Source: a virus. From it: a stretch of DNA of 56,624 bases. Within the stretch, counting starts at the first letter, position 1, and each line of letters starts with the position of its first letter. The position numbers and the translations under genes were made by a program. The notes under the pieces were generated by a model that saw only the letters and a list, made by a program, of their open reading frames with translations, was not told the DNA's origin and did not search any database. The stretch covers positions 1 through 56,624 of the IMG/VR virus record IMGVR_UViG_3300025872_000067; one strand, written 5' to 3'. Below, in pieces: positions 11,929 to 39,517 of this stretch.

Positions 11929-12984
11929 TCACTCATACGCCACGCCATCGTCCATCGCCCGGGCCTTGCGAGCCTCGAAGGCGGCGCGGCGGCGTTCGAT
12001 CCATTCCACCCCGGCCAGCTTCCAGTCGGTGGCGGCGACGTTGTCCAGCTCCGCCAAGGCGGCGTCGAAGCGGGAGGGGTTGGATACCTTCTTGAAAGCC
12101 TGGTGGGCCTTGAGCATCGGGATCGCCACGCGACGGAAGAAGTGGTCACGGAAGCCCACGGCGTCCGGCTCGCTCAGGAACATCATCAGCTCCTGGTTCC
12201 ACTCCTCCGGGTCCGTGGACATCAGCGGGTAGGGCTCCGCGATCCCGGCGGCGTAGGGGTCGGGCGTCTCCTTCCCGGTCATCGGGTTGGCGGCGAGTTC
12301 CGCGAGCGGGGCGACCTTGTCCAGCACCTCCTCATAGGCGTGGAAGTTGGCGCTGACTTGGCGATAGATGCCCTGTTCAACCCCGACACTCCGGGCGACG
12401 TACTCATGGAGGTAGCTGAAGTGGACCGCGTTGGCCCCGTAGGCTCCCCAGATCAGGTCGTTGGAGCGGTTGGTCACGGTCATGTCCAGGCGACCGTCGC
12501 AGGCGATCTGGAAGATGGCCTGAAGGTTGCACGGGAGGTCCTTGCCTTGGCGGCCCAGGTCCGCGTCCGCGTCCCACATCGACAGGACCTGGCGGCGGTC
12601 ATCGCGGTTCGCCTTCAGGGCGGCGATGATCTTGGGCAGCTGGTCCTCGAAGAAGTGCTGGCGCCAGCGGAAGCCGTAGGCCCCGTGGAAGGTCACGCCG
12701 TCATCCGAGTAGCTGCGCACGCGATCCACGAAGCGGGCAACGTACTCCACGTCATTGCGTCCGCCCAGCATCCAGAGGCTTTCCATCAGGTGGAAGAAGG
12801 GGTTGGCGTCCCGTTCCGCCCAGAACAGCACGCGCTCCGCCGGGCGGAGGTACACGGTGGTGACGGGTTCCGGGAACATGAACACGGGGCCGTTGCGCGA
12901 GTCGCGGCGGACGCCCTCGAAGGACAGTTGATACAGGGCCTCCGGGAGGGCCTGTTGTACGTTGCGGGTCTTGATGACTTTCAT
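11929..12984 (-). CDS. Thymidylate synthase-family enzyme, candidate dUMP hydroxymethylase
   Basis: The 351-residue enzyme has the TS nucleophile motif DLPCNLQ (C152) and the nucleotide-binding segment RSNDLIWGAYGANAVHFSYL (R173, D176, N185). Asn rather than Asp in this segment argues for a dUMP rather than dCMP substrate. Members of this family either methylate dUMP to dTMP or hydroxymethylate it to 5-hmdUMP. The hypermodification genes upstream make the latter more likely here, but sequence alone does not separate the two. Confidence 0.85.
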   Translation of the reverse strand: MKVIKTRNVQQALPEALYQLSFEGVRRDSRNGPVFMFPEPVTTVYLRPAERVLFWAERDANPFFHLMESLWMLGGRNDVEYVARFVDRVRSYSDDGVTFHGAYGFRWRQHFFEDQLPKIIAALKANRDDRRQVLSMWDADADLGRQGKDLPCNLQAIFQIACDGRLDMTVTNRSNDLIWGAYGANAVHFSYLHEYVARSVGVEQGIYRQVSANFHAYEEVLDKVAPLAELAANPMTGKETPDPYAAGIAEPYPLMSTDPEEWNQELMMFLSEPDAVGFRDHFFRRVAIPMLKAHQAFKKVSNPSRFDAALAELDNVAATDWKLAGVEWIERRRAAFEARKARAMDDGVAYE

Positions 12985-13493
12985 GCTGATTGTTCCTTTT
13001 CCACAAATATCTTGCGTTGATAGGACCTGCGGCGCATTTCCTCCGAGGAGGTTTGAGCAGCCATTTTGCGTAGTCGGTCGGTTTGTAGCCGTCCCACTTG
13101 ACTCCAGACTTCTTTGCCGGGGTCACTGGTTTCCGTCCAGGTTGCCCGTCCGAGCTTCCCGGCTGCGTGTTGGGCCTTGGCGCGTTCGCTCAGCAACCGC
13201 CGGTGTTCCGGGTCCGAGACGCGGCGGGAGGCTCCCGCACGCATCTTTTGACGGATTTCTTCAGTCACCGCCCGCCCCTTGCCATGTAGCTTCGCGTGCT
13301 CCGCCCGTGTGAGCAATTGCAGGTTTTGATAGTCGTTGTTGGTCTTGTCTTCGTCCCGATGGTGGAGGACGTACCCCCGAGGAACCGGGGAGTTGCCGTG
13401 AGACTCCCAGACATAGTGGTGCTCGCGCTTCCACTTTCCGTCCGGGAGTTTCACCCACCAGTAGCCGTAGAATTTGTCAAAACGACGTTTCAT
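12981..13493 (-). CDS. HNH homing endonuclease
   Basis: A 170-residue free-standing HNH protein. The motif reads YVLHHRDEDKTNNDYQNLQL followed by AEHAKLHG, giving the paired His, Asn and final His of the fold. The C-terminal ~90 residues are basic, with helix-turn-helix-like repeats probably contacting DNA. It is inserted between the TS-family gene and the kinase-associated gene, overlaps the TS start (ATGA), and lacks a strong ribosome-binding site. Base composition is less GC-rich than its neighbours. It most likely promotes its own spread. Confidence 0.8.
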   Translation of the reverse strand: MKRRFDKFYGYWWVKLPDGKWKREHHYVWESHGNSPVPRGYVLHHRDEDKTNNDYQNLQLLTRAEHAKLHGKGRAVTEEIRQKMRAGASRRVSDPEHRRLLSERAKAQHAAGKLGRATWTETSDPGKEVWSQVGRLQTDRLRKMAAQTSSEEMRRRSYQRKIFVEKEQSA

Positions 13494-28842: not shown

Positions 28843-28852
28843 GATCGCCTCC

Positions 28853-29461
28853 TCAAGCCGTCGCCTGGACCACTTCAATGGCGAACCAGGAACGAAGGTT
28901 GTTCACTACATCGTTCATAGCCGCCGCCTGCCCACTCAAGTTCAGGCGCAACTCGAAGTAGTCCCCTGCAACAACTGGGATCGGGGCAGAAGCGGGCAGA
29001 GAGTAGATGTTGTTGGTAAATCCCGTGGAACCGTCCCGGCGGGAACAGATCGGCACTCCACGGAAGTTGTCGCCGCCGTTTTTGTACACCGACATATAGC
29101 AGCCGTGGGCCGTCGCGGAGCCCGTCACCTCCACCTGTCCGCTGAGGCGAACCTTCTGGACGCCCGCCGGAACCGTCAGGCGGGTCGTGGCTCCGGCGTT
29201 CCAGAAACCATCTGTGTCGTACTCAGCAACCTGCCAGGGCACGAGCAGAGGCAAGGTGAAGTCGGTCAGCTCCGAGGTCCGACCAACCAGCGCCCCGCGG
29301 AACGGGGCGGCGAGCCCCTGACCCACGTTCAGGCCCACGAAGGCGGCAGCGATTTCGTCCAGGGTCGCCTTGCGACTGTTCCCGGATTGGATCAGGTGAA
29401 TCAGCTCATCGCCGGTGATCGTCCCGGCGGCGACCAAGTCAGCAATAGTCTTGTTTGCCAT
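28853..29461 (-). CDS. Tail fibre/receptor-binding-type protein with jelly-roll look
   Basis: The 202-residue protein begins with a helical attachment-like segment (IADLVAAGTITGDELI, residues 6-45), then forms strand-rich sequence (TTRLTVPAGVQKVRLSGQVE, GDYFELRLNLSG), reminiscent of C1q/TNF-like jelly-roll tips found on phage fibres. It lies between FN3-type proteins and the protease. A trimeric receptor-binding knob is a reasonable guess. Confidence 0.6.
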   Translation of the reverse strand: MANKTIADLVAAGTITGDELIHLIQSGNSRKATLDEIAAAFVGLNVGQGLAAPFRGALVGRTSELTDFTLPLLVPWQVAEYDTDGFWNAGATTRLTVPAGVQKVRLSGQVEVTGSATAHGCYMSVYKNGGDNFRGVPICSRRDGSTGFTNNIYSLPASAPIPVVAGDYFELRLNLSGQAAAMNDVVNNLRSWFAIEVVQATA

Positions 29462-29473
29462 GGTTCTTTCCTC

Positions 29474-29827
29474 TCAAAGTTCAAGCAAGTCGGTTCCGCT
29501 CTGGGCGTCTCCCGACAGAAGCATGTTGTTGTTCAGCCCGACCTCCAGCTCATCCACGCTCAACATGAGCTTCGCGCGGCCCGGGGCGTTCCCGTTGGTC
29601 ACCTGGATTTCGGCCCCTACCTGCTGAAGCCCGGCGAGGAAAGCCGCAACCCTGTAATAATACGTGGTGTTGGGCAGCGCCGTCTCGTCCACGTACTCCG
29701 TGACGCCCGGCCCGACCTCCGCGAGCGGAGCCGGGAGGGCTTCGGGGTCCATGGGCGAGCTGGAGCGGTAGATGCGGTGCCCGTCCTCAATGCTGTTGGT
29801 GTCCGTCCAGCGGATCAAGATGCTCAT
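29474..29827 (-). CDS. FN3-like tail protein
   Basis: The first 65 residues form one fibronectin type III-like domain (RWTDTNSIEDGHRIYRS, then TTYYYRVAAF). The remainder is a short strand-rich tail. The domain is clearly related to that at the start of the next gene (shared 'DP-ALPAPLA-V' core). It is probably an ornament of the tail tip or fibre. Confidence 0.7.
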   Translation of the reverse strand: MSILIRWTDTNSIEDGHRIYRSSSPMDPEALPAPLAEVGPGVTEYVDETALPNTTYYYRVAAFLAGLQQVGAEIQVTNGNAPGRAKLMLSVDELEVGLNNNMLLSGDAQSGTDLLEL

Positions 29828-29839
29828 TCAGTCCTCCTC

Positions 29840-30754
29840 TCACACCCAAAAAGCCAGGTGGATGTCGCTGCGGCTGTCCGTCGCCGTATCGCCGCTGATG
29901 TCCAGGGTCCCGGAGTTGAAAGCCTCGTTGGCAGCCGCCTCCACGAAGAAAGCAAAGGACCGGAATAGTCGCGTGGTCGGTTCGTCAATCGGGACCTCCG
30001 TGGGCCGGAACGCCGGAATCATACGGCTGTTGCTCCATGTGATACTACAAGTGCCGGAAGTTGCTTGGAAAAACCAAGACATGATCGACATGACCAGCGC
30101 GGGCTTGTTCGTGTTCGTGAAGCTGTAGGGCTGGGCGTCCGACTCGCCATCAAACCGGGCCGTGCCCAGGGAGGTCACGTTGATCGGCTTCGAGTCGTGA
30201 CGGATCACGGCGATGGTCGCGCTCATCCGCACGTTGCTGGTCTGCTGGAGCGTCAGGGTGGTCCCTGGCTCCGACCCGTCCGCGATCTTCCACAAGGCAA
30301 AGGTCCACTGCGCGGAGGAGTTCCCCGCGTTCGCCGGGACCGGCCCGACCGTCCAGCCCGCGGGAGTGGATGTGAAGGCGCTCCGGCGAAGCCCGAACAG
30401 CACGAGCAGGTCCCCGGCGCGGCAGTCCGGGACCTTGATGGTCAGGGTCTGTCCGTCGCTGTTGTAGCCCAGGGATATTTGCTGTGTGGCGTACAGGAAG
30501 CGGGGGACCTCCTCCGCCGCCGCCACGCTGTCCGCGGCCCCGGCCCCGACCTCCGACCCGTCGAAGGGGGCGACATGGTAGTGGTACGTGGTCCCCGCGG
30601 TCACGGTCTTGTCTTCATAGACCTCCCGCCCGACCGGCACGGAGGCCAGCGGGGCCGGGAGGGCTCCGGGATCAATCGGGGCCGTCCCCCGGTAGATGTT
30701 GACCCCGTCCTCAACCAGCTTGCGGTCTTTCCAGGTCAAGCGAACCTTGGCCAT
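29840..30754 (-). CDS. FN3-domain tail protein with beta-sandwich C terminus
   Basis: I start at the ATG at 30754 (304 aa), six bases after GGAGGAG. Residues 1-65 form an FN3-like domain (LTWKDRKLVEDGVNIYRG, TTYHYHVAPF). The remaining ~230 residues are strand-rich with no recognised motif (DLLVLFGLRRSAF, FRSFAFFVEAA). Such proteins extend the baseplate hub protein encoded just upstream. Surface adhesion is possible. Confidence 0.65.
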   Translation of the reverse strand: MAKVRLTWKDRKLVEDGVNIYRGTAPIDPGALPAPLASVPVGREVYEDKTVTAGTTYHYHVAPFDGSEVGAGAADSVAAAEEVPRFLYATQQISLGYNSDGQTLTIKVPDCRAGDLLVLFGLRRSAFTSTPAGWTVGPVPANAGNSSAQWTFALWKIADGSEPGTTLTLQQTSNVRMSATIAVIRHDSKPINVTSLGTARFDGESDAQPYSFTNTNKPALVMSIMSWFFQATSGTCSITWSNSRMIPAFRPTEVPIDEPTTRLFRSFAFFVEAAANEAFNSGTLDISGDTATDSRSDIHLAFWV

Positions 30755-30755
30755 G

Positions 30756-33632
30756 TCAAACTCCTCCACCGACCGGGTAGGCTTCGAGGCTTCCCGGCTC
30801 AAACATGTTACCAGCAGCCCCGTTCGTGCCCGTAGGCGGCGTGAGCAGCGGCAGCTTCAGTTCAGCGGGACGCCAGGAGGCAAGCCCGCCGCGCATCGTG
30901 TGTATCTGGGCCACGAGGACCGCGGACCCCGCCGGGATCGTATGGGCCAGGAGGTCGATCACGTAGCTGGTGACCAGCCCGAGGTCCTGCTGGAAGAACT
31001 GTGTTTGGGCTCCTCCAATCGTCTCGCCCAACAAGGTCACGCGGTAGGTCGTGCCGTCCTCCGGCGTCACGCTCGCGTCCGTCCACTGGAGCGGAGCCCC
31101 GCCCGTCTCCTGGAGCCGGTTGCGGTGATTCCACGTCAGGGTCGCCGGGTACACAATCGTGTCGTTGGGCGTCGCGTCGATGTCTCCGTTGACAGCCAGG
31201 TTCGCGGGCCGGTACGGGCGTGCCGCGCGGCCTTCGAGCGTCAGCTGAAGTTCCGGGGCCAGGGCGAGGTCCAACTGGCCCGATCCCGTCACCGTTGCCA
31301 GCTTCGCGCGCACCGTCTCGCTGTTCACGTACTCCGTCGCGGAGCCCGCGCTGTACTGGTCCCAGAAGTACACCACCGCCCCAGCAGCGTGTTCCGCGGG
31401 CGGCGTGTCGTACACGGCCCGGCGGACGGTCATCACGCCGTTGGTCAGGCTTTCGACCCACACCAGCTCCTCCCCGATCTGGGCCCAGGACGGGACCGTG
31501 ACCAAGTCCAGGTCCGCTCCGCCCTGAATGGAGAAGGTGGTGGTGAACCGTCCGATGGCGCTCACCAGCTCCCCGTAGGGGCAGAAGTTCACCAACCCAA
31601 CCTCCTCGAAGGTGGAGACGGCGACCGGAGCCGTGAACAGCCGGGAGTTCAGGCTGGAGACGTTCGGACGGCCCGCGGCCACGCCCAGGTAGCCCAAGTC
31701 AGGTTCGGCGGTCAGGTTCTGGTCCACCGTGGTCTGTCCTTGCTGCTGGACCAGCTCGATGTAGGGGACCTCAAACACGATCTGGTCCTGAATCGGGATC
31801 GGGGCCGCGTTCGGGTCCTCCCAGGCCGGAGGCTCCGGGGTGATGAAGGCGGTCTGCGGGAGGTCGAACACGTCCTCAGTGCAGGTGATCTTGATGCGGT
31901 TGGTCCGCCCGTCGCCGTAGGCGATCCCGGTCACGCGCATCACAACCTCGCTGAGGTTGTAGTCCTCCCACGACAGTTTGAACACGTCGCCAATCGTCAG
32001 GTCCTTCGCCGTCCGGTCCGCGTACACGGTACAGGTCGCCCGCTGCGAGGACAGGCTGTTCAGGTCGCGCTGGGCAACCCGGGAGGCGATCAGCGGATCA
32101 ACAAAGCCCGGGTATTGGATGGTGGTCCCGATAGTGACCTGCTGCATCTGCTGAAGGGCGATGTCTTGGGCCGTGACGCTCGCATCGTTCCCGGTCGCCA
32201 CGTTCCAGTAGTTCACCGTGACGGAGTTCGTCAGTTCCCCGAAGGCGGGGCGCGTGAAGTTCTCAATCTTGTCGATGTTGTCCTCATTGAGGTGGAGCAG
32301 GGCGGCTTTGTTGTATCCTCCGCGGACCAACTTCAGCGTGAATAGGCCGGTCTTGCGGTCCACGTACAGAACCGCGTCGATGTGCTTGATGATCTCCCCG
32401 ATGAAGTCCTCAATGGAGGTCTGGCGGTCCCAGAGGATACTGATGCCCATCCGCTCGCTGTGGAGCTGGTCCGCCGCGGCCATGAAGGACTGGTCATCAA
32501 TCTCCGTGTCCGCGTAGCCCATCCCCCAGTCCGGGTCCGTCAGGCACTCGCGGATGATGTGGGCCGGGTTCATCGCGGAGGAGTCGCCCATGACCGCGAA
32601 GAATACCGCGTTGTACAAGGCGTTCGAGTCCGCGGAGTCCACCACAGGGATGCCGTCCTGCGGGGTGTTCTCGACCAACGCGATGTAGGATGTGTTTGAG
32701 AGGTCGATGCTGATGCCGTACACGTCCACAGGGCTCTGCTCCCAGACGCCCTCCTTGCGGATCATCGGACCCGCGACGGCCAGCGCCTGATCGACCGATG
32801 TGGCGGGTTCCGGGAGGCCGTCCGTGATGAAGAACATCGCCCGGCGGCGACCGTCCGCGGAGCCGGGCTGAAACCAGTTGACCGCGTTGCCGTAGGGCTG
32901 GCTGAAGTCGGTCCCTCCCGAGGCGGACAAGCCGTCCACGAAGTTCTTGAGGTCCTGTACGTCCGCGGAGGAGACGTTGAAGCGGCTCATCTGGGACGTG
33001 GACGTGCTCCAGCCGCAGACTGCGATGTCCACCTGGACCTTGGAGTCAATCCGCAGTTGGTCGATAGCATCCAGCACCGCTTTCATCTGGGTCTTGGCGA
33101 TCTGGAGACGGGTCAAGCCGCCCGACACCACCGTGTCCATCGACCCGGACGTGTCCAGGGCGAAGAAGAACATTTGGCGCTGCTTGAAGTTCGAGGCGAC
33201 CTTGATTTCAGCCTTCGGGTAGTACCACTGCGCCACCCCGTTCTGGCGGAGGTGGATGCGCTGGACTCTGAATGCCCACTTCTTCAGGTACGGGTTCAGA
33301 CCGATATACACCTGACGGAGGACCACGCCGACAACGCCCCGGTAGGCCGGAATCAGGGACCCGAGCTTGCTGAGCAGGTAGCCGTTCTGCCCCTGGGCCG
33401 GTCCGCCGGGCTCGAAGTCCACAGTGCCCTGGATACCGCCCTCACGGCTTTCGCCGCCGAACAGCTCCGGTCTGTTGATGTAGATTGACCCGCTGTTCCG
33501 GTCGCCCAGCCAGGCGTCCTTCCCGTCCACTCGAATGCGCAGGATGCGATCCACCGGGCCGTGGCACAGGATCATGTGCATGCCCAGGTAGTATTTGTAC
33601 CCAACGGTGACTTTCTTACTGCTTCCGCCCAC
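30756..33632 (-). CDS. Tail-tip hub (gpJ-like) with inserted von Willebrand A domain
   Basis: The 958-residue protein has the layout of gpJ/GTA host-specificity proteins: an N-terminal strand domain to ~150 and, from ~355, NPAHIIRECLTDPDWGMG with the downstream hub and FN3-like region (TLTWNHRNRLQETGG). Between them residues ~153-348 form a vWA domain: MIDAS DTSGS (D160, S162, S164), T241 in GGTDF and D271 in FFITDG. The insert is closely related to that in the gene at 34067-35512 (both have VDL/IDL then D-LYNA). A metal-dependent adhesin role at the tail tip is inferred. Confidence 0.85.
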   Translation of the reverse strand: MGGSSKKVTVGYKYYLGMHMILCHGPVDRILRIRVDGKDAWLGDRNSGSIYINRPELFGGESREGGIQGTVDFEPGGPAQGQNGYLLSKLGSLIPAYRGVVGVVLRQVYIGLNPYLKKWAFRVQRIHLRQNGVAQWYYPKAEIKVASNFKQRQMFFFALDTSGSMDTVVSGGLTRLQIAKTQMKAVLDAIDQLRIDSKVQVDIAVCGWSTSTSQMSRFNVSSADVQDLKNFVDGLSASGGTDFSQPYGNAVNWFQPGSADGRRRAMFFITDGLPEPATSVDQALAVAGPMIRKEGVWEQSPVDVYGISIDLSNTSYIALVENTPQDGIPVVDSADSNALYNAVFFAVMGDSSAMNPAHIIRECLTDPDWGMGYADTEIDDQSFMAAADQLHSERMGISILWDRQTSIEDFIGEIIKHIDAVLYVDRKTGLFTLKLVRGGYNKAALLHLNEDNIDKIENFTRPAFGELTNSVTVNYWNVATGNDASVTAQDIALQQMQQVTIGTTIQYPGFVDPLIASRVAQRDLNSLSSQRATCTVYADRTAKDLTIGDVFKLSWEDYNLSEVVMRVTGIAYGDGRTNRIKITCTEDVFDLPQTAFITPEPPAWEDPNAAPIPIQDQIVFEVPYIELVQQQGQTTVDQNLTAEPDLGYLGVAAGRPNVSSLNSRLFTAPVAVSTFEEVGLVNFCPYGELVSAIGRFTTTFSIQGGADLDLVTVPSWAQIGEELVWVESLTNGVMTVRRAVYDTPPAEHAAGAVVYFWDQYSAGSATEYVNSETVRAKLATVTGSGQLDLALAPELQLTLEGRAARPYRPANLAVNGDIDATPNDTIVYPATLTWNHRNRLQETGGAPLQWTDASVTPEDGTTYRVTLLGETIGGAQTQFFQQDLGLVTSYVIDLLAHTIPAGSAVLVAQIHTMRGGLASWRPAELKLPLLTPPTGTNGAAGNMFEPGSLEAYPVGGGV

Positions 33633-33822
33633 GGGTCGCCTCCACTACTTGGAGGGCCATCGGATCGCCGGTGGCCACGAGTTTGTCCGCGGTGATCCCG
33701 TTCGCCAGGAACTCCGACCAGTCGAGCCCGTGTCGCTCGAAGAAGGCCCGCGCCCCGCGGGAACACATCTTAACGGCTCGCACGTCATCCATTCGGATGA
33801 TCAGTTGGCTATCGTCCGTCAT
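33616..33822 (-). CDS. Small tail-assembly protein (68 aa)
   Basis: Product starts MTDDSQLIIRMDDVRAV and contains SRGARAFFERHGLDWSEF. A short gene of this kind precedes the hub protein in related phages and gene-transfer-agent clusters. The start overlaps the upstream stop (ATGA). Exact role unknown. Confidence 0.65.
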   Translation of the reverse strand: MTDDSQLIIRMDDVRAVKMCSRGARAFFERHGLDWSEFLANGITADKLVATGDPMALQVVEATRGRKQ

Positions 33823-34052
33823 TTCTTGCCGCCCTTCTTCTTGATCGCCACGGTGCGCAAGTCACCGAACCACACCACGTTCGGGCCGTCGATGTCTCGC
33901 GTGCCGAACAACACCGGGATTTCGCGCCCCTCCTCCGCGGTGGGCACCTTGAACTCCCCGAGGCCCGCGGGCTTCGCGCTCTGCGGCTGGGGCGTCATGG
34001 AGTAGCCCACCACGAGGGCTACAACGAACACTGCGATGTACCACCAGACCAT
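33819..34052 (-). CDS. Small membrane-anchored tail-assembly protein (77 aa)
   Basis: An N-terminal membrane span (VWWYIAVFVVALVVGYSM) is followed by EIPVLFGTRDIDGPNVVW, a segment like that at the N terminus of hub proteins. I use the ATG at 34052, 8 bases after AAGGAGG; a GTG two codons earlier is too close to that site. It may help mount the hub during assembly. Confidence 0.65.
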   Translation of the reverse strand: MVWWYIAVFVVALVVGYSMTPQPQSAKPAGLGEFKVPTAEEGREIPVLFGTRDIDGPNVVWFGDLRTVAIKKKGGKK

Positions 34053-34066
34053 GGTCACATCCTCCT

Positions 34067-35512
34067 TTACACGATGGAACTACCATCGAACGGGTTGCGC
34101 AGGGGAATCCAGTCAAACCCGCCATAGTTGTTCAAGTTGTTGAAGCGGTTGAGGCACGTGTTCCGCGTCCGGTCGCAGCCCGGGAACAGGCGAACCTTCA
34201 ACCCGCCGTAGTATTTGCCATAGGATAGCCCGTAACCGTCCAGGGACAAAGCCTTCGCCAGCGAGACGAAGGGCCGGATCAGCGTCAGCTGGCTCCCGGA
34301 GTGGGCCACGATGAAGCGCAGGGTGCCGTCCGGGCCTTCGAGCATGCCGGTGGCGAAGTAGCCCGCCGGATAGGCTGCGGCCTCCGGGACGGTGACCACG
34401 GCCCCGTTCACGGCGGTCGGGACCCCGTTCACGGCCCAAGCCTCCTTGCTCACTCCGCAGCCGCGCGAGTAGAGCATGTGGCGGCAGCTCCGCTGGTAAC
34501 GGGCGCGGAGCCCAGGGCGGCGCAGGGAAGTGAACACGGACTCGAAGTTGAGGACGATCTCACTCATGGAAGGCTTCAGGCCCGACAAGCGGCCCTTCCA
34601 GACAATCCCAATCTCCCCGTCCTCATCCTTCTCGAAGATTGTGAGCCCAACCAACGTCTCCACGAGGTCGTGGAGCCAACGCTTGCCCATCGCGTTGTCC
34701 AGGTCCAGCTTCACTTCGATGTTCGCCCGGCTCAGTTCGTTCTTCGTCTCCGTCTCCGACCGCCCCAGGGGGATCGGCTCATAAGTCTCGCCCATGTACG
34801 TCACCGCGGTGTCCCCGCTGGTGTAGGTCCACACCTCCGACTCCGTGGGCACCGCGCTCAGGATGGCGTTGTACAAGGCGTCCGAGTTCGTGGAGGAGAG
34901 GACCGGCACGCCGTCCCGGGGCGTGTTGTCGAGCAGCCCAAGGTATGTCGTGTCATAAAGGTCCACAGACATACAATAAATGTCCACCTCATTCCCGGAG
35001 GCGGGCGAGAAGGCCCCGGTGCGGGTGATCATGTCCACCGCGAGGCTCGCCGCGTTCGCGGCAGAGCTGGCGGACTCCGGCACCCCGTCCGTGATGAAGA
35101 ACAGGGACTGGCGGAAGTCCGCCGGGGTCGGGGTCAGGAAGTAGTTGCGCGCCGCGGCCATGGGCGCGTCATAGGGCGTCCCGCCCTCAGCGACCAGCCC
35201 ATCAATCCACGCCTTCAGGTCCGCGATGGAGGAGCTGGAGACGTTCCGGCGGACAATCGTCACGGTCCCGGTCCCGGAGAAGGCCGCCATGCCGATATGG
35301 ACAGCCACATTCTTCTCAATCCGCTTCCGGTCGATTTCGTCCAGGACCCGCTTCAGCTGATCCTTGGCGACCTGGAACCGGGTCACCCCGGGCGACACCT
35401 GTTCATTCATGGACCCAGACTTGTCCAGGATGAAATAGAAGTTCTGATTGCCGTCGAAGGGGTCCCGCAGGCCCACCTCCGTGAATCTGTATAGCTCAAC
35501 TCGTGTACTCAT
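34067..35512 (-). CDS. BR0599-family tail protein split by a vWA domain
   Basis: The C-terminal ~255 residues match the phage BR0599/DUF2163 tail family: WTYTSGDTAVTYMGETYEPI, cysteines in SCRHMLYSRGCGV, and CLNRFNNLNNYGGFDWIPL. The first strand of that fold (VELYRFTE) is separated from the rest by residues ~20-226, a vWA domain with MIDAS DKSGS (D30, S32, S34), T112 in GTPYD and D142 in TDGVPE. Insertion into the middle of a known fold is clear. The start overlaps the upstream stop (ATGA). It probably forms part of the tail tip with the hub. Confidence 0.85.
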   Translation of the reverse strand: MSTRVELYRFTEVGLRDPFDGNQNFYFILDKSGSMNEQVSPGVTRFQVAKDQLKRVLDEIDRKRIEKNVAVHIGMAAFSGTGTVTIVRRNVSSSSIADLKAWIDGLVAEGGTPYDAPMAAARNYFLTPTPADFRQSLFFITDGVPESASSAANAASLAVDMITRTGAFSPASGNEVDIYCMSVDLYDTTYLGLLDNTPRDGVPVLSSTNSDALYNAILSAVPTESEVWTYTSGDTAVTYMGETYEPIPLGRSETETKNELSRANIEVKLDLDNAMGKRWLHDLVETLVGLTIFEKDEDGEIGIVWKGRLSGLKPSMSEIVLNFESVFTSLRRPGLRARYQRSCRHMLYSRGCGVSKEAWAVNGVPTAVNGAVVTVPEAAAYPAGYFATGMLEGPDGTLRFIVAHSGSQLTLIRPFVSLAKALSLDGYGLSYGKYYGGLKVRLFPGCDRTRNTCLNRFNNLNNYGGFDWIPLRNPFDGSSIV

Positions 35513-36681
35513 GGTTGTATCTCCACCGTGTTCACAGTCGATGCGACCACGCTGTTGCCTCGCCAGTTCAGTTCTACCCGATCCGTGTCCAGACGGCGAA
35601 GCCCCAAAAAGCTGACCGCGTGGATATTTCCCGCGGCGACGTTCATGGCGCTGTCCAGCGTCAGCTCAACCGTGGAGGCGTCCCCGGTTTTCAGGGCCGC
35701 GCTGTTGATCGTCCGACACAGCCAGGTTCCGCCCGAGGTCAGGACCGCGATGTGGTTGCGGAGCGGGAGCCAATCCAGGAGTCCGTCCGCGGCCTGAACC
35801 GGGAGGACGTTGGTCACCGTCCCGGAAGCCTTGTGGCGCAGATCGTTCTCAAATGTCGGCTCCCAGAAGGGACGGAAGCGGCCCGCGCGGCGCATCAGCC
35901 ACTTGCGGTACGCCCGGACCTCCGCCGCTCCTTCGCACAGCACGTTCTTCGGTCGTGTGTCTCGATTGTAGCGCCAAGGCGTCCGCCGCGCAACTTTTCC
36001 GAGGGCGTAGTCAACCCTGTCCACTCGCGTGCTAATTTCGTGGCTCATGGCATCGTTCGTGAACAGGCCTGGGGTAAGGTACAGATCACGCCCCAGGAAT
36101 TGCGCCGGGGCATCCTCCGCCAGCGCCTGGATGTCCTCGATTTCAAAGCGCAGCTGCGTCTCCGCCTCATAGCCGTTCGAGGTCCGTTCAGGCGATCCTT
36201 CGATGTGCCCGAGGCGCAGCGGGATCAGGTACGCATTCTGGAAGGCGTCCGTGTACCCGACCAGCGTCAGCTCGCCGGTCGCCACCGTGTCGATTTCGAC
36301 CACCTGCCACTGCGTCGCGTTCTGGTACAGGAGGGCCAGGGATTGGGCGCGGAGGTCATAGTTGGTCGTGTCGCACAGGATCGTCTGGAGGTTCATCAGA
36401 ACCGTCCCGAGGTGCTGGGCTTCGGCCCAAAGGGGCACGGCCCACTTCAGGCCCAACGCCCCGTACTGGGCGATGAAGGCGGAGGGCTTCACGCTCGCCG
36501 TCTCCGGGAGGTTGTACAAGAAGGTCTGGCGCGGATGGTTGCGCAGGCGCAGCCGGTTCTCCGTCCCGTTGAAGCTGGTCATCAGGTCGGTCCGCCACTC
36601 CAGCGTCTCCCGAAGCGGCACGCGGGCCGGGATCGGGAGCAGGGCCAATTCCCCGAACAGGTTGGTGATGATCTTCGCCAT
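35509..36681 (-). CDS. Distal tail/minor tail protein
   Basis: The 390-residue beta-rich protein lies between the tape measure and the BR0599-type gene, the usual slot of distal tail proteins in YuA- and GTA-like phages. Features include RFRPFWEPTFENDLR and SFLGLRRLDTDRVELNWRG. It presumably closes the tail tube and attaches the hub. Confidence 0.75.
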   Translation of the reverse strand: MAKIITNLFGELALLPIPARVPLRETLEWRTDLMTSFNGTENRLRLRNHPRQTFLYNLPETASVKPSAFIAQYGALGLKWAVPLWAEAQHLGTVLMNLQTILCDTTNYDLRAQSLALLYQNATQWQVVEIDTVATGELTLVGYTDAFQNAYLIPLRLGHIEGSPERTSNGYEAETQLRFEIEDIQALAEDAPAQFLGRDLYLTPGLFTNDAMSHEISTRVDRVDYALGKVARRTPWRYNRDTRPKNVLCEGAAEVRAYRKWLMRRAGRFRPFWEPTFENDLRHKASGTVTNVLPVQAADGLLDWLPLRNHIAVLTSGGTWLCRTINSAALKTGDASTVELTLDSAMNVAAGNIHAVSFLGLRRLDTDRVELNWRGNSVVASTVNTVEIQP

Positions 36682-36682
36682 A

Positions 36683-39517
36683 TCAGCTGCTCACAATAGC
36701 CCGGGCGGTGTCGGAGTTCCGCCGCAGGACGTTCATGATCACCTGCTCCCCGTCCGGGGTCGCCAGGTAGTCGCCCATCATCGCCGGGTCCAGCACGTTG
36801 ATGATCCGGGCGTTCACCTGCGGAGCCGCGGCCCCGCCGCCGCCCTCATAGGGGTCGCCCTTCTTGACCTGTTCGGGCCGCGCCACGCTCACCTTCTCGC
36901 CCGGGGTCGCCCGGAAGGCGACCATTTGCGAGTCTGGACCGCCCTGACCGCCCACCACGAAGCTGCCGCCGGTCTGGAACCCGAGGTTGGTGCTCATGAT
37001 CTGGGCGATGTTCGCCGCCGTCGCCACGCCCACCGCCGCCGCGAGGGCGTAGTTGGCCGGAGGCGGAGCGGAGGCCAGGGCCTTCTGAACGGCCAGCACG
37101 CCGTCGATGGTCGCCTGAGTGACCGCCGCGGCCTTGCCGATAGCGGCCAGGGTCCGGTTCTCCGACCGCGACAACGAAGCCAGGTTGCCGAAGAAGGAGC
37201 TGGCGTTGCCCAGCTGCTTCGCGTACAGGTCCGCGTTCGCCTTCGCCTTCATCTGCGCAGCGGTCTGCTCGCTGATGAGGTCGGCTTGACGGAGGGCGTC
37301 GATTTGGGCGAGGGTCTGCTCATACTGAGTGACCCAAGCCATCTGCTGCTCCATCGTCCCCTCAAACAGCGTGCTCTGCTGCTCGACAAGGTAGGCGGTC
37401 GCCTCCTGCTGCGTGATCGTCCCGTCCTTGATCAGGCTGTTGATCGCCGCGAGCTGGTCAATGAACTCCTTTTGCGGCCCGAGGATCGCGTTGATGATGT
37501 TCCCGCGCTGCTTCTGAATCCCGGCCTCCGTCTGGAGGAGGGTCAGGCGCTCGCGGAGCTGGGCCAGCTCCTGTTCGTTGATGATGATCCCCTGCATCAG
37601 GAGGTCTTGCTGAATCGACCGCAGCTGGTTCTCGACTTCGCGCTGGTCCGCGGTCATCTTCAGCAGCTCGCTTTCCTTGTTCAGCTCGCGGTTGAGTGCG
37701 CCCAAGGGGTCCATCGCGTCCTTCAGCTGCTCCTGCATCAGCGCGATGACCTGGGCCTTGCGCTCCCCGGTGATCAGGCCCGCGGCCTCCGCCTGTTCGA
37801 GCAGCTTCACGCCTTCCGCGTACTTCTGCTGCGCCGCCCACACGCGGTCATAGGACCCGATCAGGCTGTTCAGTTCGTCCTGGAGCTTCTTCAAGGCTTC
37901 CGCGGCCTTCTTCGCTGCTTCGGCGTCCGGGACCATGGAGCGGGGGCCGCGCTGGTTCAGGTCCGCCGCCGGTCCGTTCTGGGCCGCCACGCGGTCCTTC
38001 CCGATCTGCTGGGCGCGGGTCACGGTACGCTCCAGGAAGTCCTGGGCGTAGTTGGTGTTGCGGAAGCCTTCGCTGAAGGCGGCACCGATGTCTTGCCCGA
38101 GCTGACGTGCGGCCCCTTCGTTCTCGTTGGTGAGGCGGAGGTCCACCGCGGCGATCTTGCCCAACCCGGCGAACTCCGTCACCGTGCTCAGGAGTTCGCC
38201 CGCGGCGTTCACGAAGCTGCCGATTTTGCCCAGGACCACGTTCAGCGCCCGGGTCATCAGGTCCCCGAGGGCCGCGGGAAGGCCCTTGAACAGGGCGACC
38301 ACGGCCATGATCGCTCCGCGCCAGGCTCCGATGTATGTGTCCACGCCCTTCGCCACGAGGCGGAGGATGCCGATGATGCTGACATCGACCTCGCCCACCC
38401 AGTCCTGGATCAGCTGGATCAGCGGCCCGAAGGTGTCCTTGGCCCATTGCCAGATCGCCCCGAACACGGCCCCGACCGTCTCCCCGAGAGCACGCATCAT
38501 GTCGCCCAGGGTCGTGACATCGTCCACGCCCAGGTTGATCTGGTCGCGGAACAAGGTCAGCGCGGTGATCGCGGAGGTGAGCACCACGAGAAGGAAGCCG
38601 ATGGGGTTGGCCGCGATAGCGGCATTCAGCGCCAGCACCGCGTTCCGGGCCAGGTTGATCGCGCTCGCGGCCCCGCCCACGAGGGCGAGCCCCGCCGCCG
38701 CGGACAAGGCGACCTTGGCGATGGTGTCCAGGTTCTCGCTCACGAACAGCAGCGCCCGGGAAATGGCCTCACTGGCCCCGGTCGCTTGGTCGAAGCGGCC
38801 CACCATATCAATGACGTTGTTCTTCAGGATCTGGAAGGACTGACCGATGGTCGGGACCGCCTTGCCAAAACGCTCCTCCAGCTCGCCGCGGGCGTTCTGG
38901 AAGGCGTCGAAGATGATGTCAGCGGTGATCTTGCCGTCCCCACCCATCTTGCGGAGCTGGCCGCGGGTGACGTTCAGCTGCTTGGCGATCACGTCTGCGA
39001 CGGTCGGCAGCTGTTCGAGGACGCTGTTCAGCTCATCGCCGCGGAGGACGCCCGAGGCCATACCCTGGGCGAGCTGGATCATGCCCGCCTGGGCCTCCGT
39101 CGCGCTCGCGCCCGACAAGGCAATGGCTTGGTTCAGCGACTTCGTGAAGTCGATCAGCTCCTGCTGGCTCAGGCCCATGTCCTTCGCGCTGTTGGCCAGT
39201 CGCCCATACGTCTCCACCGTCCCCTCGAAGGACTGGCGAGTGCTGTTGGCTACGCCCAGCAGCTGCTGATAGACCGCGGTGAGGTTCTGGGCCTCCAGGC
39301 CGGTCGCCCGGAGTCGGTTCTGAAGGTTGGTGAAGGTGTCCAGAAGTCGGACCAGCTCACCAGCCGTGATCGCGGCCCCGAGGGTCGCCAGGGCCTTCTT
39401 CAGGAACTCCACCCCATCGGCGGACTTTCGAGCACCACCGCCGATGTCCTCCAGGTTGCGCTTAACAACCCGCGAACCTCGCTCAGTGATGACTATGTCA
39501 ATGCGTTCTTCGGCCAT
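36683..39517 (-). CDS. Tape measure protein
   Basis: The 944-residue protein has the TIGR02675-like N-terminal tape measure domain (FTNLQNRLRATGLEAQNL, QLAQGMASGVLRGDELNS), followed by a large helical region with several hydrophobic segments between about residues 240 and 330 and long coiled coils. It sets tail length and may help eject DNA through the cell membrane. It follows the tail chaperones, as usual. Confidence 0.9.
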   Translation of the reverse strand: MAEERIDIVITERGSRVVKRNLEDIGGGARKSADGVEFLKKALATLGAAITAGELVRLLDTFTNLQNRLRATGLEAQNLTAVYQQLLGVANSTRQSFEGTVETYGRLANSAKDMGLSQQELIDFTKSLNQAIALSGASATEAQAGMIQLAQGMASGVLRGDELNSVLEQLPTVADVIAKQLNVTRGQLRKMGGDGKITADIIFDAFQNARGELEERFGKAVPTIGQSFQILKNNVIDMVGRFDQATGASEAISRALLFVSENLDTIAKVALSAAAGLALVGGAASAINLARNAVLALNAAIAANPIGFLLVVLTSAITALTLFRDQINLGVDDVTTLGDMMRALGETVGAVFGAIWQWAKDTFGPLIQLIQDWVGEVDVSIIGILRLVAKGVDTYIGAWRGAIMAVVALFKGLPAALGDLMTRALNVVLGKIGSFVNAAGELLSTVTEFAGLGKIAAVDLRLTNENEGAARQLGQDIGAAFSEGFRNTNYAQDFLERTVTRAQQIGKDRVAAQNGPAADLNQRGPRSMVPDAEAAKKAAEALKKLQDELNSLIGSYDRVWAAQQKYAEGVKLLEQAEAAGLITGERKAQVIALMQEQLKDAMDPLGALNRELNKESELLKMTADQREVENQLRSIQQDLLMQGIIINEQELAQLRERLTLLQTEAGIQKQRGNIINAILGPQKEFIDQLAAINSLIKDGTITQQEATAYLVEQQSTLFEGTMEQQMAWVTQYEQTLAQIDALRQADLISEQTAAQMKAKANADLYAKQLGNASSFFGNLASLSRSENRTLAAIGKAAAVTQATIDGVLAVQKALASAPPPANYALAAAVGVATAANIAQIMSTNLGFQTGGSFVVGGQGGPDSQMVAFRATPGEKVSVARPEQVKKGDPYEGGGGAAAPQVNARIINVLDPAMMGDYLATPDGEQVIMNVLRRNSDTARAIVSS

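Follow-up and report, generated by a model that had tools for sequence, protein, structure and literature searches.

The stretch of DNA analysed here (the window) is a virus record of 56,624 bases in which the tail genes lie on the minus strand. The gene for the tape measure protein (36683..39517; PF20155) directly adjoins that for T1, a distal-tail-protein-like product of 390 aa (35509..36681; phrog_1082). Then comes L (34067..35512; 481 aa; PF09931 and PF09356), a BR0599/DUF2163 upper baseplate protein resembling gpL of phage lambda, and, beyond two small tail genes of 77 aa (33819..34052; phrog_1180) and 68 aa (33616..33822; phrog_1196), J (30756..33632; 958 aa, with a GTG start; PF13550 and phrog_1101), a gpJ-like baseplate hub. 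A von Willebrand A (vWA) domain is inserted in both L and J, at residues 22-219 of L (34856..35449; MIDAS residues D30, S32, S34, T112 and D142) and at residues 152-345 of J (32598..33179; D160, S162, S164, T241 and D271). The sequence-only reading had placed the reading frames of J and L at these same positions, in agreement with the ORF list, and had named them as a gpJ-like hub and a BR0599-family tail protein; both identities are borne out.

In J, PF13550 covers residues 402-570, profiles match the hubs of phages JBD30 (8rk3_o, E 9.7e-166) and Chi (8vjh_A, E 4.5e-210), and the predicted model matches the two hubs over the body with Z 38.5 (JBD30, 8rk3_b) and Z 37.4 (Chi), the rmsd of 23 indicating that the domains are arranged differently. 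Thus, profile and fold matches to solved structures both place J with the hubs of the JBD30/Chi type. L has PF09931 at residues 226-355, PF09356 at residues 437-471 and four conserved cysteines of the Fe-S type (C343, C352, C446 and C453; invariant in alignments A2 and A8), which together identify it as a gpL-like Fe-S upper baseplate protein of the BR0599 family. Its profile matches 8vjh_D (E 1.5e-50) and 8rk3_g (E 5.8e-37), and its predicted model retrieves first the upper baseplate proteins of JBD30 and Chi and then vWA proteins. JBD30 (8rk3) has homologues of J, L and T1 in the same gene order (hub gp53, upper baseplate protein gp50 and distal tail protein gp49), the hub, upper baseplate and distal tail proteins of Chi (8vjh) are homologous to the same three, and a split hub with an Fe-S protein is also described for lambda gpJ/gpL in the parts of PMC10721106 and PMC11101478 drawn on here.

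Several lines of evidence support the proposal that J and L both contain a vWA domain of about 200 residues with a complete MIDAS. Pfam detects VWA_2 in J (residues 156-272, 37.3 bits against a cut-off of 27) and, over the curated cut-offs, VWA_2 (residues 26-143, 39.8 bits) and VWA (residues 26-155, 38.1 bits) in L (PF13519/PF00092). PHROG 15205, a tail family of 467 positions, spans L lengthwise including its vWA domain and also matches that of J, so the domain is already present in public families. J, used as query, matches 758 phage records; in one of these, from Bordetella phage MW2 (KY000218), the matched region bears a feature called von Willebrand factor type A. In AlphaFold models built from the window and its IMG/VR relatives (mean pLDDT 77 for L and 80 for J), block means are 84-97 over most of the L domain and drop to 70-80 at its C terminus. 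The modelled L domain aligns with the vWA domain of ANTXR2 (7n1o; Z 21.4, rmsd 2.1, 177 residues; VIA-align) and with the vWFA domain of the LapA adhesin (Z 19.8, 24% identity; VIA-align), and the J domain aligns with 9das (Z 21.0, rmsd 2.4 over 179 residues), residues 150-349 of the J model matching vWA chains at about Z 20. Both segments are thus predicted to adopt the Rossmann-like vWA fold. The solved sequences nearest to the vWA profile include the LapA-adhesin vWFA domain (9no5, 4.6e-16), a large adhesin of Aeromonas (9das), collagen VI and cell-wall surface proteins. The matches also include non-adhesins (TFIIH, Ku, complement and BatB), and because the TFIIH and complement domains score like adhesin domains in the fold match, the fold says nothing of function. 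The MIDAS was invariant in a first set of 19 vWA domains. A broader, non-redundant collection of 46 (27 from J, 12 from L and 7 from T1) keeps D, S, S, T and D in 43, that is, in 39/39 domains of L and J and in 4/7 of T1, the departures being the T1 domains of L043, L062 and L085. From this intact MIDAS, the L and J domains are expected to bind a divalent metal. Neither of the outcomes that the sequence-only reading had named as refuting it, MIDAS residues that relatives do not conserve or structures without a vWA fold, was obtained for L and J.

Both domains are clean insertions at sites that relatives leave empty. In L, as the sequence-only reading had it, the domain interrupts the body after the first strand, between ELYRF-E and W-YTSAD; 8 of 15 aligned L proteins lack it while their flanks still align, and the profile alignment places the site within the first hairpin of JBD30 gp50, around residues 22-28. 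The J domain, likewise an insertion, sits between about residue 145 and NPAHIIREC (about 354). Only 4 aa remain at this site in PSASB_03 and L099, the JBD30 hub runs from 139 to 148 across it, and Chi, unlike the window J with its vWA domain, is nearly empty there (146 to 158). JBD30 has no insert at either site. An Ig-like domain is inserted in the HDII-insertion region of lambda gpJ according to the available parts of PMC10721106 and PMC11101478; this insert (HDII-ins2, FNIII-A), whose site may correspond to that of the vWA domain in J, is of the Ig/FNIII type and not a vWA domain. In Achromobacter phage AchV4 (L222, 12908-15574), J seems to have about 130 aa inserted elsewhere, between profile positions 42 and 46.

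The L and J domains of the window share 47% identity (phmmer E about 1e-51), which rules out chance similarity. They had been thought similar near their ends, with one probably copied to the other. The relationship stands, although the likeness runs along the whole length, and so does the common origin, but the copying is old, since L copies group together and not with the J domain of their own genome. The underlying tree is unrooted and started from 75 domain matches, of which 48 were left after dropping named repeat contigs and short or weak domains, and 46 after dropping L019 (two rows); the L domain of L021/L100 is absent because the same contig was dropped under both ids. In the 46-row tree, 11 of 13 L domains form one clade (100/100); the other two, of the Bordetella type, fall elsewhere, but a topology that unites all 13 cannot be rejected (p-AU 0.2). 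Of the seven T1 domains, six group together (96/86), and the remaining one, from L106, groups with Bordetella-type J domains (98/84). Identity between L and J domains averages 0.36 within genomes and 0.34 across genomes, so that neither this comparison nor the tree supports recent copying or gene conversion within the window genome. Base composition does not point to recent import: GC is 63% in each of the two domains and 64% in the window. The pair stems from an old duplication, for which J to L is the simpler direction, as J-vWA occurs more widely and the occurrence of L-vWA is nested within that of J-vWA, although the tree is unrooted. Apart from J and L, a vWA domain is found in T1 of L005 and L017. 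An alignment of all 19 domains of the first set was too variable to serve for scanning the collection; a scan with the J domain returned one locus. The vWA-bearing ORFs at L111:7704-10213 have no L or J body in the 16 kb of this locus.

How widely the arrangement occurs was assessed in a main survey of 213 loci with an L body, of which 208 exceed 180 aa; clustering at 90% L-body identity gave 127 representatives, with J readable in 114 and 96 scorable for the J slot and fibre genes. The loci are not independent, and the sample is non-random, some having been fetched with vWA or fibre-type queries. An earlier survey comprised 98 loci and 76 representatives, 70 with a readable J. Across the loci of the main survey, the J site holds a vWA domain, an unrelated insert of at least 100 aa or next to nothing, with L143 and L187 intermediate (55 and 60 aa). 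The non-vWA inserts formed 13 sequence clusters in the first survey, and among 15 inserts scanned with Pfam, one is a Laminin_G_3/ConA-like lectin over the cut-off and most match nothing, with weak matches to BNR-type repeats in L076 and L082 and to a beta-galactosidase all-beta domain in L024. Judged from these sequences, the J insertion site is a variable slot. In L008, L047, L053 and L058, whose J slot is also filled, T1 is about 515-530 aa long with an extra N-terminal stretch of about 140 aa. The closest relatives in the genome collection, L152, L153 and L155, come from a MAG named Anaerolinea thermophila (isolate SulCav), at two places in one contig of 111 kb; these are probably phage contigs binned into the MAG.

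The contents of the slot show an either/or pattern with the side fibres. PSASB_03, in which the slot is empty, has two genes between the tape measure gene and T1 that match JBD30 chains 8rk3_c (6.4e-30) and 8rk3_S (5e-14), while its T1 matches the distal tail proteins of JBD30 (8rk3_U, 4.7e-64) and Chi. Chains c and S presumably correspond to gp47 and gp48, judging by the parts list of the JBD30 paper and the gene order. According to the portions of PMC11445458 used here, three tail fibres composed of gp47 and gp48 extend sideways in JBD30; the distal tail protein gp49 wraps its N-terminal loop around them, and they bind the type IV pilus. The window phage differs from JBD30 in this respect, as fibre profiles detect no such genes between the tape measure gene and T1. 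Among the 96 loci, none of the 63 with a filled slot has fibre genes upstream of T1 or a vWA domain in T1, while 23 of the 33 with an unfilled slot have one or the other (19 fibre genes, 4 T1-vWA; Fisher p 1.1e-14, with kinship ignored). The remaining 10 of 33 have neither and are mostly distant relatives in bacterial genomes. A strict rule, by which every locus has a filled slot, fibres or a T1-vWA, is not supported, the exceptions being L143, L186, L190, L195, L201, L202, L203, L206, L207 and L208. Ten named phages had an empty slot in 10/10 cases (gaps of -16 to +16 aa, T1 of 516-580 aa), a result that tests one direction only, as all were selected for fibre homologues. In L072, a gene resembling those for the JBD30 fibres lies downstream of J (12606-13493) although the J slot is filled; it was counted as fibre in the earlier survey and is excluded from the upstream count of the main survey. 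Exclusion between J-vWA and T1-vWA alone was not significant in the earlier survey (p 0.31).

Among records labelled Septimatrevirus, three states are found: in TehO and Kakheti25 the slot is empty and fibre genes are present, in SCUT-S3 fibre genes are lacking and the slot holds 168 aa, and in QH3, which also lacks fibre genes, both J and L have a vWA domain. The tree of L bodies (114 loci) requires a minimum of 5 changes of state for the slot, 5 for the fibre genes, 17 for J-vWA and 5 for L-vWA. Independent-pair tests had 3 pairs on supported branches for the slot against fibre genes or T1-vWA and 4 pairs for L-vWA against J-vWA (median p 0.25 in each), numbers with which significance is unreachable.

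Based on these data, we suggest, with a probability of roughly 0.5, that the J-vWA is an adhesin module which occupies the variable slot in the hub and replaces the side fibres, and that the L-vWA is an old, secondary copy. Because the slot elsewhere holds other domains, or is empty in phages with side fibres, the vWA domain is probably a module for gripping the host; the exchange with other modules and with fibres supports adhesion indirectly. In this model, homology with JBD30 and lambda predicts a tip with three copies each of J and L and hence as many as six vWA domains, which would face outward. Each domain would have Mg2+ or Mn2+ at its MIDAS, would bind a ligand at the cell surface and would thereby do the first-attachment job of the gp47/gp48 side fibres of the JBD30 type. 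The L domain would be an added copy, used only when the J domain is present.

This last point bears on an alternative in which the MIDAS joins the L-vWA to the J-vWA (or to loops of the hub), and the two domains stabilise the tip or gate it without touching the host. All 13 loci with an L-vWA have a J-vWA, compared with 17 of 101 other loci (table 13/0/17/84 for 114 loci; Fisher p 2.8e-9, with kinship ignored), the pair is largely co-inherited, and the homologues of L and J touch each other in JBD30 (PMC11445458) and lambda (PMC10721106), as described in the parts of these papers used here. Such a contact would fit that dependence. However, 17 of 30 J-vWA representatives have no L-vWA, which rules out obligate pairing as a general rule; moreover, a fixed partner is unnecessary, since the J slot of relatives takes unrelated domains, and a contact of this kind leaves the either/or pattern with the fibres unexplained. 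We therefore regard it as possible but rather doubtful.

A role as docking platform, in which the vWA domains hold not the host but a further protein of the phage, for example a receptor-binding fibre whose gene lies downstream (window about 28850-30800), is in our view unlikely. The JBD30 hub also bears fibres and receptor-binding proteins (in the material drawn from PMC11445458), and structural-type genes come after J in the window and in relatives, but the product of window 29840-30802 has weak matches only. A long shot is an integrin-like, metal-dependent switch, in which the J-vWA and L-vWA domains would be six I-domain-like modules arranged in a ring, and a ligand bound at the MIDAS would shift their ends. 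These ends connect with the body of the hub and with the first strand in the HDI-like domain of L, and their movement would pull the hub towards opening; if so, receptor binding and tail opening would be coupled by allostery of the I-domain type. That the domain is a mobile passenger, which a surface loop tolerates and which serves no selected function, would suit its at least 17 changes of state in J but is hardly credible given that, of 204 alignment columns, those of the MIDAS rank among the most conserved and are intact in every L and J domain of the non-redundant set.

If the vWA domain of the hub is an adhesin module, as we favor, then a simple rule suggests itself for the tail tips of a large siphophage group, namely that attachment relies either on a separate side fibre or on a plug-in domain of the hub or of the distal tail protein. 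The vWA domain would be one such plug-in, the adsorption strategy would be partly predictable from sequence, and the predicted metal dependence could be tested by plaque or adsorption assays. One ligand-binding fold would also have moved among three adjacent baseplate proteins, J, L and T1. Phages of the Titanvirus type (RcHartney, RcTitan) have the same tail module and a related vWA domain, which in the Rhodobacter phage Titan type lies instead in the distal tail protein T1, with a J slot of 17 aa. Among the matches listed from open-access PMC full text, we found no description of a vWA domain in tail tips of the gpJ/gpL type; N4-type and other mentions of vWA, in the parts of the literature covered, concern other proteins. 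The nearest precedent seen is gp164 of Bacillus phage 0305phi8-36, a protein of the baseplate/fibre region with a vWA domain that is exchanged for another domain in relatives. This is a different, large phage, gp164 is not a gpJ/gpL hub, and no vWA pair is reported in the sections of PMC2147016 drawn on here. Finally, a subtilase-family protease (PF00082; 27613-28878, minus strand) is encoded beside the tail genes of the window, and in Xanthomonas phage Mallos an S8 protease likewise lies just downstream of the tail genes.
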